From NCBI RefSeq assembly GCF_020696975.1, contig NZ_JAJGBK010000029.1, positions 124,001-188,000 of the forward strand: DNA of 64,000 bases. The letters run 5' to 3'. Position 1 is the first letter of the stretch, and each line of letters begins with the position of its first letter. Shown here piece after piece: positions 15,047 to 21,926 of the stretch. Below the pieces are notes generated by a model. It ran no database searches. It was not told the DNA's origin and was given only the letters and a program-made list of their open reading frames with translations. Both the position numbers and the translations under genes were made by a program. Source of the DNA: Methanoculleus sp. GTDB lineage: Archaea > Halobacteriota > Methanomicrobia > Methanomicrobiales > Methanoculleaceae.

Positions 15047-16360
15047 ATGAACGGAAGGATTAGCGGCCTGCCCCTTCTCGCAGGCCTCATCGTGATCGGC
15101 TGCATCGCTGCCGGGTGCACCGATACGCCGCAAACAACAACTACCGGCCCCACTTCACCTCCCGGGGGGAATGAGCCGATGAATAGCCAGACAGCAGCAG
15201 AAGTCACCGGCAACGTCTCGGCGGGGAACAACCGGTTCGCGGCCGACCTCTACCGGCACCTCGCAAGCGACCCGGGAGCCGCGGGCAAAAACATCTTCTT
15301 CTCGCCCTACAGCATCTCCTCGGCCCTGGCAATCACCCACGAAGGCGCCCGCGGCACAACCGCCGATGAGATCAGTGCGGTCCTCCACCTCCCGGAGAAC
15401 ATGAGCCTCCTGAGAGCCGGGTTTGCCGGGCTTGACGCCAGCCTGAACAGCGGGGACCAGAACTACACCCTCCGAACCGCAAACGCTCTCTGGGCAGAGG
15501 AGACCTACCCGTTCCTCCCGGAGTACATCGACGTGGCCGGACGGTGGTACGGGGCGAACGTAACAAACCTTGACTTCGTCAACGACTCTGAGGGATCGCG
15601 GCAGACGATCAACCGCTGGGTGGAAGAGAAGACCGAGGATAAGATCCGCGATCTCCTCCCCTCCGGCACGATCGATCCCCTGACCCGGCTCGTGATCACG
15701 AACGCGATCTACTTCAAGGGTACCTGGGCCATGCAGTTCGACCCCGAAGAGACGACGGAGGAAGAGTTCCGGGTTGCTCCGGGCGAAGCAGTGCAGGTCC
15801 CGATGATGCACCGGACCGATGAGGACGCGATCTATGGATACGCGGAGACTGACAGTCTCCAGGTGCTCAGGATGCCGTATGCGCACGCTGACGGAGCCGG
15901 ACTCTCGATGCTCGTCCTTCTTCCGCGGGAAGAGAACCTGACGGCGGCGGAGGAGGCTCTCGACGCCGGGACGCTCACGGATATCCGGGATTCACTGACC
16001 GACCGGCGCGTCAGGGTCGTCTTCCCGAAGTTCACGCTTGAGACGACGTACAGCCTCCCGCAGGCACTTGCGGCGATGGGGATGCCGACGGCGTTCTCTG
16101 ATGCCGCCAACTTCTCGGGGATGGATGGGACAGAGGATCTCTTCATCAGCGACGTCGTCCATAAGGCGTTTGTGGACGTGAACGAAGAGGGCACCGAGGC
16201 CGCGGCGGCGACCGGCGTCGTCATGAACCTGGCGAGCGCACCCCTTGAGGACAGAACGCCCGTCTTCCGGGCTGACCACCCGTTCGTCTTCCTCATCGTC
16301 GAGGAGGATTCCGGGACGATCCTCTTTGCAGGGAGGGTCGTAAACCCGGAGGGGCAGTAA
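15047..16360 (+). CDS. Serpin (serine protease inhibitor) with lipoprotein signal
   Basis: Lipobox IAAGC; NNRFAADLYRHLA, NIFFSPYSISSALAITHEGARGTTADEI; hinge VNEEGTEAAAATGVV; ADHPFVFLIVEEDSGTILFAGRVVNP. Confidence 0.95.
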   Translation: MNGRISGLPLLAGLIVIGCIAAGCTDTPQTTTTGPTSPPGGNEPMNSQTAAEVTGNVSAGNNRFAADLYRHLASDPGAAGKNIFFSPYSISSALAITHEGARGTTADEISAVLHLPENMSLLRAGFAGLDASLNSGDQNYTLRTANALWAEETYPFLPEYIDVAGRWYGANVTNLDFVNDSEGSRQTINRWVEEKTEDKIRDLLPSGTIDPLTRLVITNAIYFKGTWAMQFDPEETTEEEFRVAPGEAVQVPMMHRTDEDAIYGYAETDSLQVLRMPYAHADGAGLSMLVLLPREENLTAAEEALDAGTLTDIRDSLTDRRVRVVFPKFTLETTYSLPQALAAMGMPTAFSDAANFSGMDGTEDLFISDVVHKAFVDVNEEGTEAAAATGVVMNLASAPLEDRTPVFRADHPFVFLIVEEDSGTILFAGRVVNPEGQ

Positions 16361-16390: not shown

Positions 16391-17146
16391 TCATTCCTCC
16401 GCGAGCCTCTCGACGATCGTCTTCTGCAGGTAGCCGATGATCGGCATATCCGAGCCGATCACCGCATACTGCCCGGATCCGGCCGTAGCAATCGCAAAGA
16501 AATCCCGGCCGTCGACCAGGATTGCGCACTCGTCCTTTCTCGCGCCTTCCATCACGGACTCGTTCACCGGCCGGGCATCCATGAGGTCAATGACGGTTCC
16601 TTCCGCCTCGTAGATGGGGAGGTTAATCCCGGCATACTCCTCCTTGTTCCGCACGACCACGTAGAGATCGATCTTCCGCTCGAGGGGTTTGAGGGTCGTG
16701 CAGTACTTCCGGAGAAACCCGGGATTATAGCAGAGGATCACCATGCTCTTCTTCACCCGGCGGAAGAGCGCGGAGATATGGTTCTCGATTGCCCAGCCGC
16801 TCCGGAGGATGAAGAACGAATCCGGGGAAAGGCGCGGTTTGACCGAGAGGCTCTTTAACGCCTCGCGTGTCTCCTCAAGAGACCGGATGTAGTCATCTTT
16901 GAGCCGGTCGAAGACGACATCGATGTCGAGTATGTAGTAGGAGGAGGGAGAGCCTTCCTCAACCGCGATGAACCCACGCCGGGCCAGGTCGTTTAATATC
17001 TCGTAGATCCGTCCCCGGGGCACCCCGCTCACCTCATGGATGTCCCGGGCGGTCGCTTTCTGCAGCCCGACGAGTGTCGAGTAGACGCTTGCCTCGTACT
17101 CGTTCATCCCGACGGCCCGGAGCCCGGGAAGAATCTCAGCAGTCAT
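16391..17146 (-). CDS. TrmB-family transcriptional regulator
   Basis: LRAVGMNEYEASVYSTLVGLQKATARDIHEVSGVPRGRIYEILNDLARRGFIAVEEGSP. Confidence 0.87.
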   Translation of the reverse strand: MTAEILPGLRAVGMNEYEASVYSTLVGLQKATARDIHEVSGVPRGRIYEILNDLARRGFIAVEEGSPSSYYILDIDVVFDRLKDDYIRSLEETREALKSLSVKPRLSPDSFFILRSGWAIENHISALFRRVKKSMVILCYNPGFLRKYCTTLKPLERKIDLYVVVRNKEEYAGINLPIYEAEGTVIDLMDARPVNESVMEGARKDECAILVDGRDFFAIATAGSGQYAVIGSDMPIIGYLQKTIVERLAEE

Positions 17147-17528
17147 TGCACCTCTATTGAGTTGCAACAAACTTATGGTTTCCTGATAGAGACGGATATC
17201 TGCGAGAGAGGGGCCATCTCTCCTCGCAGACCGCGCCCACACGGCAGCCGCCTGCCAGAGGCCGGGCATACACCGTAAACAGACTCCACGCAAACGGGCC
17301 GGGATGCCCCTTCGAGAACGGCTGCACTGGAGAGCGGACGAGAGCAGCACGCAGAACGATACTTCCTGAACCAGCAGAACAATCCTCCGGCCTTAGAGCG
17401 GAGGGATCCGTCATCAACATGCTCTGAATGTATCCAGCGGCACCGGCGGCGGGCTCAGGCGTGGCTGAGCCGTCGCCCGCGCGCCCGTCACCCGATATGC
17501 CTTCTCGGGCAGCGGCCGGCTTCTGCCG

Positions 17529-18212
17529 TCAGTAGCCGGCAAGGAGCATGGAGATGAGGCGGGCCTCGCCCCGGCGCAGATGCTCAATCGCGGTGGTCTT
17601 GCTGATGCCCAGTTTTTCTGCGAGTTGCTGGCTCGTGATCTTTCGGGGATACTCGTAGTAGCCGTAGCGTTTCGCCGCGAGCAAGAGATCTCTTTGCCTC
17701 CGGGTGAGAGCCGAGAGCGGCCCGTTCTCAGAGAAGGTTGCCTCCTCGAAGATGACGTTCCGGACCTCGCCGTAGGTGGACAGGAGACGGAGAACTTTGT
17801 TCAGGTTCTCGGCATCGCCGATGCAGGTGTAGATGTGCAGGTCGCGGGACTTGTATATAGGCAACGTCCAGATGATGTCCAGGTCGAACTCACGCATCTT
17901 CTCCAGCAGGAACTCGTCCCGGATGACGATCCGGAGAAAGCAGGTATATGTTCTGCCGTCGACCTTGAGCACCTCAAGAGAACCGAGACTTTCCGGGAAC
18001 TCAAGGTCGTTCGCGGTGCATCCCACTTTCATTGTGATCTCGGCAACCACCGTTTCCTCACCCCGCTCAAAGTTCACCTTGAGCAACTCGAGGACTTTCA
18101 CGGATTCGATCCTGTCCAGGAGATCTTTCACCATCCAGTTGAGGAACGCAGTGTCAGGGGGCCTGCCCATTAACGGATCCTTCAGGCAGACTTCGACAAT
18201 CATCTTGCGCAT
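17529..18212 (-). CDS. Bacterio-opsin-activator-type HTH_10 regulator
   Basis: C-terminal LTRRQRDLLLAAKRYGYYEYPRKITSQQLAEKLGISKTTAIEHLRRGEARLI. Confidence 0.83.
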   Translation of the reverse strand: MRKMIVEVCLKDPLMGRPPDTAFLNWMVKDLLDRIESVKVLELLKVNFERGEETVVAEITMKVGCTANDLEFPESLGSLEVLKVDGRTYTCFLRIVIRDEFLLEKMREFDLDIIWTLPIYKSRDLHIYTCIGDAENLNKVLRLLSTYGEVRNVIFEEATFSENGPLSALTRRQRDLLLAAKRYGYYEYPRKITSQQLAEKLGISKTTAIEHLRRGEARLISMLLAGY

Positions 18213-18522
18213 ATGTTGTGTGGAACACCGCCCACATAAACCCCGTACATATACGGGAAAATCATGAATCCTCCAACTCCCCAATACAGATTGATATGGG
18301 AAGCATGAGAGAACCTGCTCCGGACAACTCCGTCCGGGAGCCGGACTGCGATACCTGCCCCTGTTCGGGTTGCAGTAAGTTCATATCCCGTCCCTTAAAA
18401 ACAGTAACTCCAGCAGATGAGTCATATATAAAGAGGAGAGACGTGAACTGCTCAATGACCTGTAATACCGGTTTTCACCGGCGATCCGGCGGATCGTCGC
18501 TCAAGAGACCGGCGCATCGTAA

Positions 18523-18862
18523 AATGTCCCATACAGAATCTTTCTATGAGGAGACCGACCAGGTATGGACCGAGGCCGGGTTCCTTCCCCCGGCGGACTA
18601 CCGGCGGGCCGTAGCCCTGCTGCACCGCCTCGCCATGGCCGAGGAGCCGGCGGCATCCCTGGTCTCGTGCGTTCTGACAGGAGCGGCAAGAACCGGTGAT
18701 GCCGGCCACAATTACCGGATCCTTGACTCTATAAAACTCCGTCGCACTGCTGAGGAATACGGCATTGACACCACCGAAAGAGACGATTGCGAGATAGCTC
18801 ACGCGGTGACCACGGCAATCATCGCCGAGTACGGGGAGAAGACTCCGGAGGAGAGGGCATGA
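18523..18862 (+). CDS. Small CooS/CODH-like protein (112 aa); true ATG at 18524
   Basis: YRILDSIKLRRTAEEYGIDTTERDDCEIAHAVTTAIIAEYGEKT resembles the CooS segment YxIKDxxKLxxxAxxLGIxTEG...; stop overlaps start of next gene (ATGA). Confidence 0.6.
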
Positions 18863-21117
18863 GGAACCCCTACGAGTGGCTCGCCGCCGCCGTCAACAAC
18901 CACACCTGGACCGTCGCCGGGGTCGCCCTGGCCATCTTCATCGTGGCGTGCTTCGGACTCTCGCTGGTCTCGATGGAGACCAGCGACGACGCCTACCTCG
19001 ACAAGACCACCCCCCGCGGCGCGCTCCTGAACCACTACGTCGAGACCTATGGCTCCGACGCGATCATGCTCCTCTACGAGACGGACAGCGTCCGGAGCCC
19101 CGAGATCCTCGAATACATCGACAACCTCCAGGAGGATCTCAGGAACGAGCGCTACGTCGATTCCGTCTCCGGCGTCGTCGATCTCTTAAAACAGGCGAAC
19201 GGTGGGACCCTGCCGTCGTCCACGGCGGAGATCAATGCGATCATCGGCCAGGCCCCGCCGGAGATGGTTGAACGGATGCTGCCTTCAGACCTCATGACGA
19301 TCAGCGTCATCGCCCTTGAACCCGGCGTCACCATGGAGGCGCAGCAGCAGGTTGTCGGGAACATCAAGTCCATCGTCGCCATATCGGAGCCCCCGGCGGG
19401 GCTCACGGTCACGGTCTCGGGCAACCCTGCGTTCTCGCTGGAGATGGGCGAGGCGATGGGATCCGAGACGGGCATGCTGATCCTCGTGGCCATGATCCTG
19501 ATGGTCTTCGCAGTGATGTTCCTCTTCTCCCATGTCCGCTACCGGCTTCTCCCGGTCGGGATTGTGGCCGTCGGCCTCATCATGACCTTCGGGCTCATGG
19601 GCCTCTTTGGTATTCCCATCAGCATGGTGGTGGTCGGGGCGTTCCCGGTCCTGATCGGGATCGGGATCGACTACGCGATCCAGCTCCACGCCCGGTTTGA
19701 TGAGGAGATCCGGCGCGGCACGATCCCGGAGGCCGTATGGGCCACCGTCACCCAGATGGGGCCCTCGATCCTGATCGCGATGTTGTCGACGGCACTCGGG
19801 TTCATCGCGATGTTCTTTGCGCCGGTGCCGATGGTGGCCGACTTCGGGATGGTCTGCACCATCGGGGTCGTCTCCTGCTACATCGCAGCGCTCATCATCG
19901 TCCCGGTCTTTGCAATCGTCACCCGCTACCGGCCGAAAAAAGAGGCCGTATCCGCCGGGACCGAACCATCGGGCGGGGAATCGCTCATCGAACGATACGA
20001 CCGGCTTCTCGGGCGGCTGGCCTATACTGTCGCAAAATACCCGATCCCTGTCATCATGCTCTTTGCAGTCGTCGCGGCAGGAGGCTTCTACCTCGACCAG
20101 AGCGTCCCCGTCAGTGCGGATGAGAAGACCTTCGTTCCCGGCGATATGCCCGCCCTTCTCTCCCTTGAGAAACTCACCCGGGTCATGGGCTCGACAAGCA
20201 CCATCCCGGTCGTCGTGCTCGCGGACGACGTCCTCTCACCGGAGACGCTCGCCTGGATTGATCAGTTCGGCGTCTACGAGCAGGAGCATAATGACAAGAT
20301 AACCGGGGTAACAAGTGTCGCGACCCTGATCCGGGAGTATAACGGTGGCGTGCTCCCCTCGACCGAGAGGGAGGTCGACGCCATCGTTGCCCGGATTCCG
20401 GAGTCGACCCTCTCCCGTTACCTCAACGGGAACCTGGAGGCGGTGCTTGAGTTCTCGACGGTCGATATGGAGATGAGCGTCGCCCGCGACCAGGTCGGGA
20501 GGATACAGAACGACGTTGCGTGGAACAACCCGCCGGCCGGCGTGACGGTGAGGCTCACCGGCCAGATGGAGATGTTCGCCGCTGTCATGGACGACATCAG
20601 TGATTCGAGGACATACATGACCCTGATCGGGTTCGTCTTCATCCTCGGCTTCCTGGTCCTCGTCTACCGGAAGTTCTCGGCCATCTCGCCGGTCATCCCG
20701 ATCGTCTTCATCGTGGGCTGGAACGGGGCGATCATGTACCTCCTCGGCCTCGAATATACGCCGCTGACGGCCGTCCTCGGGTCGATGACGATCGGCGTCG
20801 CGTCCGAGTACACCATTCTGATCATGGAACGGTGCGAAGAGGAACTTGCCCGGGGCATGGAGTTCCTGGATGCCGTCCAGACCGCCGTGCAGAAGATCGG
20901 GACAGCCATCACGGTATCGGGGCTGACGACGGTCTTCGGGTTCTCGGCACTCACCCTCTCGACGTTCAACATCATCAGCAACTTCGGGATCGTGACAGTG
21001 ATCTCGGTCGGGTTCTCGCTCGTGGGCGGGATCGTCGTGATGCCGGCGATCCTCGCGCTGATGTACCGCTTCAGCGGCCGCTCCCGGGTGCCGGCAGGAG
21101 CCGCTAACCCGGAATAA
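18859..21117 (+). CDS. RND-superfamily (HAE3/MMPL-like) exporter
   Basis: Two repeated halves each with 6 TM; GIGIDYAIQLHARFDEE in repeat 1 and TIGVASEYTILIMERCEEE in repeat 2. Confidence 0.9.
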   Translation: MRNPYEWLAAAVNNHTWTVAGVALAIFIVACFGLSLVSMETSDDAYLDKTTPRGALLNHYVETYGSDAIMLLYETDSVRSPEILEYIDNLQEDLRNERYVDSVSGVVDLLKQANGGTLPSSTAEINAIIGQAPPEMVERMLPSDLMTISVIALEPGVTMEAQQQVVGNIKSIVAISEPPAGLTVTVSGNPAFSLEMGEAMGSETGMLILVAMILMVFAVMFLFSHVRYRLLPVGIVAVGLIMTFGLMGLFGIPISMVVVGAFPVLIGIGIDYAIQLHARFDEEIRRGTIPEAVWATVTQMGPSILIAMLSTALGFIAMFFAPVPMVADFGMVCTIGVVSCYIAALIIVPVFAIVTRYRPKKEAVSAGTEPSGGESLIERYDRLLGRLAYTVAKYPIPVIMLFAVVAAGGFYLDQSVPVSADEKTFVPGDMPALLSLEKLTRVMGSTSTIPVVVLADDVLSPETLAWIDQFGVYEQEHNDKITGVTSVATLIREYNGGVLPSTEREVDAIVARIPESTLSRYLNGNLEAVLEFSTVDMEMSVARDQVGRIQNDVAWNNPPAGVTVRLTGQMEMFAAVMDDISDSRTYMTLIGFVFILGFLVLVYRKFSAISPVIPIVFIVGWNGAIMYLLGLEYTPLTAVLGSMTIGVASEYTILIMERCEEELARGMEFLDAVQTAVQKIGTAITVSGLTTVFGFSALTLSTFNIISNFGIVTVISVGFSLVGGIVVMPAILALMYRFSGRSRVPAGAANPE

Positions 21118-21227: not shown

Positions 21228-21926
21228 GTGGCAAATGAAGACCTCACGGCGCAGGTATTGGCGCCATTTGAGCCGGTTGAAGAACTGGCCCGCAATGTCA
21301 TTCTGTTTCTACCAAACGTCATTGCAGCGATCATCATCCTCATCATCGGCTGGATCCTCGGGCGAATTCTCGGCAGAGTCGTCTCCGAGGTTCTTGATCG
21401 CCTCGGTGTCGATGACGCGCTCAGGAAGACATCGGTCGGCCAGCAGATTGAGCGGTCCGGGACGAACATAAGTCGTCTCTTCGATCTCATCGTCCGCTGG
21501 TTCATCTATCTTATCGCAATCCTTGCAGCAGTCAGCGTTCTGCAGATTCCGGCACTCACACTGGCAGTCGCGGCCATCGTGGCCTACATCCCGAACATCC
21601 TCGCGTTCATTATCATCCTGGTCGCTGGATTCATCCTGATCGACTGGCTGATCGACCTCCTCACACATATGGGAGAGACGCAGCAGATCCAGGGCTTCGG
21701 ATTGATCGCGATGTTGCTCCGGGCATTTCTCTACTTCGTCGTCGCCATCCTCGCGCTCCAGCAGCTCCTGCTCGACCTCTCGATCATCTATGTCTTCATC
21801 GTCCCGATCGCATGGGGAGTCGGGCTCGGCCTCGGTGCGGCGATCGCCCTCATCGTCGGGTTCGGCCTTCGCGACCGCGCGCCGGAGATGATGGACCGGC
21901 TGATGGGCAGGATGAGAAAAGAATAA
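21228..21926 (+). CDS. Small mechanosensitive-channel-like protein (conserved TM-helix repeats)
   Basis: GTG start; NVIAAIIILIIGWILGRILGRVVSEVLDRLGVDDALRKT; TATA-like tttatatag about 40 bp upstream. Confidence 0.78.
   Translation: MANEDLTAQVLAPFEPVEELARNVILFLPNVIAAIIILIIGWILGRILGRVVSEVLDRLGVDDALRKTSVGQQIERSGTNISRLFDLIVRWFIYLIAILAAVSVLQIPALTLAVAAIVAYIPNILAFIIILVAGFILIDWLIDLLTHMGETQQIQGFGLIAMLLRAFLYFVVAILALQQLLLDLSIIYVFIVPIAWGVGLGLGAAIALIVGFGLRDRAPEMMDRLMGRMRKE

Follow-up and report, generated by a model that had tools for sequence, protein, structure and literature searches.

A putatively permuted CooS-like mini-protein paired with HAE3-family exporters in Methanomicrobiales

Surveys of carbon monoxide dehydrogenases (CODHs) recognize clades A-H and a mini-CooS, and report associations of clade B with ABC transporters and of clade D with regulators (PMC6344411, PMC8776680, PMC13056359). 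The mini-CooS (Techtmann et al. 2012) is described in one survey as a clade G member with a complete cluster-formation motif (PMC8776680). Small proteins paired with transporters are also known: AcrZ is a membrane peptide paired with AcrB (PMC7267776), and GlnK, a soluble PII protein with known ligands, is encoded by a gene that is often paired with that of the transporter AmtB, in archaea too (PMC3831643, PMC3198391).

The window analyzed here, a stretch of 64,000 nucleotides from a 2.29-Mb draft genome whose named close relatives are Methanoculleus, encodes a small protein (hereafter, the mini) that resembles the Ni-CODH CooS (TIGR01702, PF03063) in that both of its halves are homologous to CooS, to residues ~96-157 and ~181-216. 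Unlike CooS, the mini carries these parts in swapped order, is ~100-140 aa long as opposed to ~630, is devoid of the cluster regions, and scores below both curated cut-offs. It is a small CODH relative with a name similar to that of mini-CooS but, unlike the latter, it is permuted and has no cluster motif. With AcrZ and GlnK it shares the pairing of a small protein with a transporter; neither of them is CODH-derived and the analogy is a functional one only. The neighboring exporter is an ordinary member of the HAE3 RND family (TIGR00921) whose mini partner is undescribed in the open-access literature searched, where we found no paper on a permuted cluster-free CODH domain and none on the pairing of a mini with an HAE3 exporter. 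No Pfam or NCBIfam family covers the mini, and the permuted family is previously unnamed.

The mini gene and its surroundings

The features of the locus are as follows (coordinates are those of the window):

16391-17350, minus strand: TrmB-family regulator (PF01978, 2e-20), the neighbor of the mini across the order
17529-18212, minus strand: HTH_10 regulator, bacterio-opsin-activator-like, divergent (PF04967, 2e-18)
18369-18384, plus strand: conserved DNA element GTTGCAGTAAGTTCAT, a candidate operator, found in the genus upstream alignment and followed by a TTAAAAA box
18443-18862, plus strand: mini gene, predicted soluble protein with a putatively permuted CooS helical segment (139 aa from GTG, 112 aa if from ATG 18524)
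18548-18638, plus strand: N-half of the mini (EETDQVWTEAGFLPP...LLHRLAM), matching CooS ~181-216, which lies downstream in the CooS segment
18639-18706, plus strand: variable linker joining the halves (dN/dS 0.57)
18707-18844, plus strand: C-half of the mini (HNYRILDSIKLRRTAEEYGI...IIAEYGEKT), matching CooS ~117-157, which lies upstream in the CooS segment
18859-21117, plus strand: HAE3-family RND exporter, 752 aa (TIGR00921, 512.2 bits; PF03176 MMPL, 8e-53)
21228-21926, plus strand: mechanosensitive-channel-type conserved-TM-helix protein (PF05552, 1e-19), located downstream and kept in several Methanoculleus genomes

Further upstream, an ORF with a lipoprotein-like start (15047-16360) encodes what we take, by its look, to be a serpin-like protein.

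The 112-aa ORF quoted in the first-pass annotation is encoded exactly as given (18524-18862, plus strand). We nevertheless take the mini to be 139 aa long, GTG 18443 being its most likely start, because this codon is conserved together with a GAGG Shine-Dalgarno sequence ahead of it (kept in all 29 genus members used in the upstream DNA alignment, the position being moved by short in-frame indels in a few of them), whereas ATG 18524 is not conserved across the genus alignment. The span earlier assigned to the locus, 18284-21117, has to be shortened: its part at 18284-18442 is conserved non-coding DNA preceding the conserved start. Since this stretch holds the conserved DNA element and the TTAAAAA box, its apparently cysteine-rich translation (CDTCPCSGCSKF) was ruled out as protein. 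The N-terminal NCxxTC of the mini was likewise ruled out as a metal site, its cysteines being missing in several family members. The only exact copy of GTTGCAGTAAGTTCAT in the genome is the one ahead of the mini, and near matches are no commoner than those of a reversed-pattern control, so that a role of this element as a regulon operator was rejected. The hydropathy profile of the mini contains no hydrophobic segment, and the protein is predicted to be soluble.

The mini gene is under purifying selection. The median Nei-Gojobori dN/dS is 0.35 for the mini core, 0.20 for the N-half, 0.37 for the C-half and 0.39 for the N-extension, and it is highest in the linker; protein-level constraint on the N-half is as strong as that on the exporter (0.23 over the first 300 codons). 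A match to the mini is present in 32 of the 40 genomes of the family, the one in G039 being a fragment of CooS, and none of the 26 near-complete genomes lacks it. The possibility that the gene is a relic kept by coupling to the exporter, raised earlier, is not supported for the window gene, because the gene is under purifying selection; with dN/dS of 0.20-0.35 and a match in every near-complete genome, neither relaxed selection nor patchy decay is seen.

Decay does fit a few lineages. L135 (2989-3249, minus strand) and L136 (6851-7108, plus strand) are from genus members with tandem HAE3 exporters, of which the first follows an intact mini and the second a decayed copy with an in-frame deletion. 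The mini copies of L129 and L203 (genus g17) are also shortened by in-frame deletions, and the decayed copies are still open up to the exporter start. At L127 (G050) it is the exporter beside the mini that is apparently broken, only a 106-aa matching fragment of it being found.

Relation of the mini to CooS

The resemblance to CooS pointed out in the first-pass annotation is weak but real when judged from the single sequence, and family profiles strengthen it. The Prismane profile PF03063 matches the mini with E=7e-4 (18.8-18.9 bits, below the gathering cut-off of 27 bits) and TIGR01702 with E=0.03 (12.4 bits, below the curated cut-off of 478 bits). When the PDB is searched, the best match of the single sequence is a CODH (E=0.0017); a profile of 23 orthologues retrieves CODH at E=1e-6 and nothing else up to E=10, while a diverse-family profile places CODH chains first (E=7e-10 to 1e-8) and has designed helical repeats as its best non-CODH matches (E=1e-4). 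In the best PDB chain, 6t7j, there are two matches in reversed order, profile positions 54-92 corresponding to CooS 118-156 and positions 5-40 to CooS 181-216. The upstream stretch that had been described as only weakly similar to a later part of CooS is therefore a real match. The linker partly aligns to CODH-II 96-115 with the diverse profile, positions 39-100 of which correspond to CODH-II 96-157.

The mini's match spans only CooS ~96-216, and the B-, C- and D-cluster ligand regions are absent, which agrees with the earlier statement that no catalytic C-cluster part follows. The designation "CooS/CODH-like mini-protein" thus holds as far as likeness to CooS is concerned and fails in so far as it implies a small CODH, since there is no cluster region; enzymatic activity is not expected of the mini. 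Type-I CooS of the same order keep the residues that correspond to the invariant T, W, P and H and to the nearly invariant G of the minis, and the invariant residues hold across distant families. Over 99 aligned columns, the window protein shares 36% identity with the CooS of L137 taken in permuted order; its identity to the CooS encoded in the same genome, a CooS of another type, is 21%. In a tree built on 136 columns the minis form one separate group with support of 100/100, so a single origin is not contradicted; the root of this tree is not fixed.

To compare the order of the parts, the family alignment was split into N-half and C-half, and the CooS segment was taken from ten type-I CooS of the same order. 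With hhalign, whose E-values come from a one-entry database and are uncalibrated, so that score contrasts were used instead, the N-half matched CooS segment 2 at 96.7%, as against 1.7% for segment 1, and the C-half matched segment 1 at 98.7%, as against 3.1% for segment 2. For the mini as a whole, the score was 104.0 over 94 columns with permuted CooS (99.2%) and 71.8 over 55 columns with the native order; the maximum was 17.8 for column-shuffled segments and 17.1 for permuted windows taken from other parts of CooS. Profile-profile similarity to CooS is thus significant. HMMER found the C-half in 10 of 10 type-I CooS at 29-45 bits (maximum in shuffled CooS, 5.3) and the N-half, also in 10 of 10, at 12-31 bits (shuffled maximum, 3.5). 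In each of the ten the C-half match precedes the N-half match, and in the mini this order is reversed (segment 2, then segment 1). Two AlphaFold2 models with nine close relatives as input were of low confidence (pLDDT 54.5 and 57); the top eight Foldseek matches of the second were all CODH, with E of at least 2 and over a partial chain only, which agrees with the sequence result and proves nothing. At the level of sequence, the homology of both halves to CooS is well supported, and so is the view that the mini represents a circular permutation of the N-terminal helical segment of CooS, from which the metal-cluster parts are absent.

Occurrence of the minis, their exporters and regulators

Family f1 (genera g1 and g3) and families f2 and f4 of the order have full-length permuted minis, and the permuted family was found only in Methanomicrobiales. 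Among 295 genomes sampled across the phylum, full-length CooS made up the matches from outside the order, apart from a small number of weak ones. Of the weak matches, two are TatA-like proteins with a SAP-like tail (L166, 2749-3084; L167, 2831-3172), in which a C-terminal KLEKVAKDLGVETEGRSDEEIARDI-type tail resembles the SAP-like motif of CooS. No relative of the mini was found in viral contigs, and a virus link was dropped.

A second family (type B, as opposed to the permuted type A) consists of 92-112-aa ORFs in CooS order, with the WxExGxxPPxxxxxVELLHR piece at the C-terminus after a partly eroded first segment. In some type-B loci (L154-L158, L163-L165) the gene that immediately follows is a different HAE3 paralog, with 44-47% identity; in others (L132, L159-L162) the mini is on its own. 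Since this CooS-order family retains the same piece, the N-half may be the functional heart of the mini, and the CooS order is suggested to be ancestral, the permuted form having arisen by duplication and loss.

The window exporter was correctly recognized earlier as an HAE3-type RND exporter: its TIGR00921 score exceeds the curated cut-off of 351.9 bits. The reported ATGA overlap is also there, the TGA of the mini (18860-18862) overlapping the ATG of the exporter (18859-18861). Such a stop/start overlap, ATGA or GTGA, is found in all 29 distinct loci of the genus that were examined and in the one examined locus of another genus. At many loci there is instead a gap between the two genes. In a tally drawn from listed best hits, which is a sample and not a census, 60 of 63 scored minis are immediately followed, on their own strand, by an HAE3 exporter, at a distance of -24 to +181 bases between profile-match edges. 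The pairing is kept in several families of the order and is thus not absent in relatives. In the same sample, 28 of the 88 exporter homologues tallied have no mini; therefore, members of this exporter family can function in its absence. Twenty unpaired exporters, inspected with the profile and by reading the upstream ORFs, have no intact mini before them and one decayed copy (L203).

Of 36 type-A loci from outside Methanoculleus, 35 have a TrmB homologue nearby, in most cases as the adjacent, divergent gene. In the window the HTH_10 gene stands between the TrmB gene and the mini; among the loci examined, this HTH_10 regulator was seen only in Methanoculleus. Five type-A minis lie beside TrmB with no exporter (L114, L124, L128, L169, L170), and in two of these loci (L128, 3892-6534, and L170) they adjoin genes for SBP_bac_11 solute-binding proteins of ABC transporters. 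Of 13 type-B loci, 12 have a TetR regulator as a neighbor, and five of these lack an exporter.

Possible roles of the mini

The reading that we favor, and to which we give about an even chance, is that the mini, derived from a permuted cluster-free CODH domain, is a cytosolic subunit of the HAE3 exporter with an accessory or regulatory function. It is favored because of the gene overlap, the shared strand and the fixed order with the exporter. The mini and the exporter would be made together from their overlapping genes, presumably by co-translation, under the control of a TrmB-type regulator in most lineages; the soluble helical mini would then bind the cytosolic face of the exporter and may tune or assemble it in the way GlnK acts with AmtB or AcrZ with AcrB, a ligand and the direction of control being part of the conjecture. 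The best reading of the module is regulator, accessory protein and exporter. The exporters without a mini and the five type-A minis beside TrmB without an exporter count against an accessory role. The proposal of the first-pass annotation that a rearranged CODH-derived accessory domain operates in a transport or sensing operon is borne out by the reversed-order homology, the purifying selection and the pairing with HAE3 and TrmB. A stronger version, which we consider doubtful, makes the permuted cluster-free CODH domain a dedicated sensor or regulator joining TrmB and the RND exporter in one signaling-export unit, with CODH modules placed next to HAE3 exporters both as a permuted form accompanied by TrmB and as a CooS-order form accompanied by TetR.

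It is possible, though on balance rather unlikely, that the true partner of the mini is the adjacent regulator, TrmB for the permuted and TetR for the CooS-order form, with the mini acting as a co-regulator or ligand sensor and the exporter being a mere output. This idea draws its strength from the persistence of minis beside TrmB or TetR at loci without an exporter, and clade D CODHs are themselves tied to transcription regulators (PMC13056359). It fits less well with the gene order, in which the exporter overlaps or directly follows the mini while the regulators are divergent or elsewhere, and with the difference in regulator type between the two mini families. Moreover, a divergent local regulator is common for efflux genes. 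A role mainly in cis, whereby ribosomes translating up to the ATGA would be passed on to the exporter gene and the mini itself would be of little importance, could account for the overlap kept in the genus and for the decayed copies of L135, L136, L129 and L203 that reach the exporter start. It is improbable for the window gene because of the protein-level constraint, equal to that on the exporter, and it also sits badly with residues invariant across distant families, with the gaps at many loci and with minis that have no exporter at all.

The derivation of the mini from CooS might point to an adaptor for CODH, a copy of the CooS surface that binds partners or maturation factors of CooS and links CO metabolism to export. 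Such a link is very improbable because genus members without a detected CooS (e.g., G008, G013, G016, G026, G027 and G028) keep the mini; in addition, minis are not generally found at CooS genes, and the nearest CooS type differs from that of this genome. We find it equally hard to believe that there is no homology, i.e., that the C-half merely has a SAP/Rho_N-like helical motif of a generic kind and the likeness of the N-half is due to chance. Rho_N does reach E=0.06 in 2 of the 23 members, TatA tails of other families match weakly, and designed helical repeats appear with the diverse profile; yet each half independently matches its own piece of CooS far above shuffled controls, and CODH chains rank first, being the sole matches up to E=10 with the genus profile.

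If the mini is what its sequence suggests, an enzyme domain has been naturally cut out, circularly permuted and stripped of its metal clusters, and a whole methanogen order retains it for a different function. Automatic annotation will call the minis hypothetical or misread them as CODH, and surveys of CO metabolism should exclude them from CODH counts. The mini is a named candidate partner for archaeal HAE3 exporters and, since the overlapping gene pair is easy to co-express, the partnership is directly testable.
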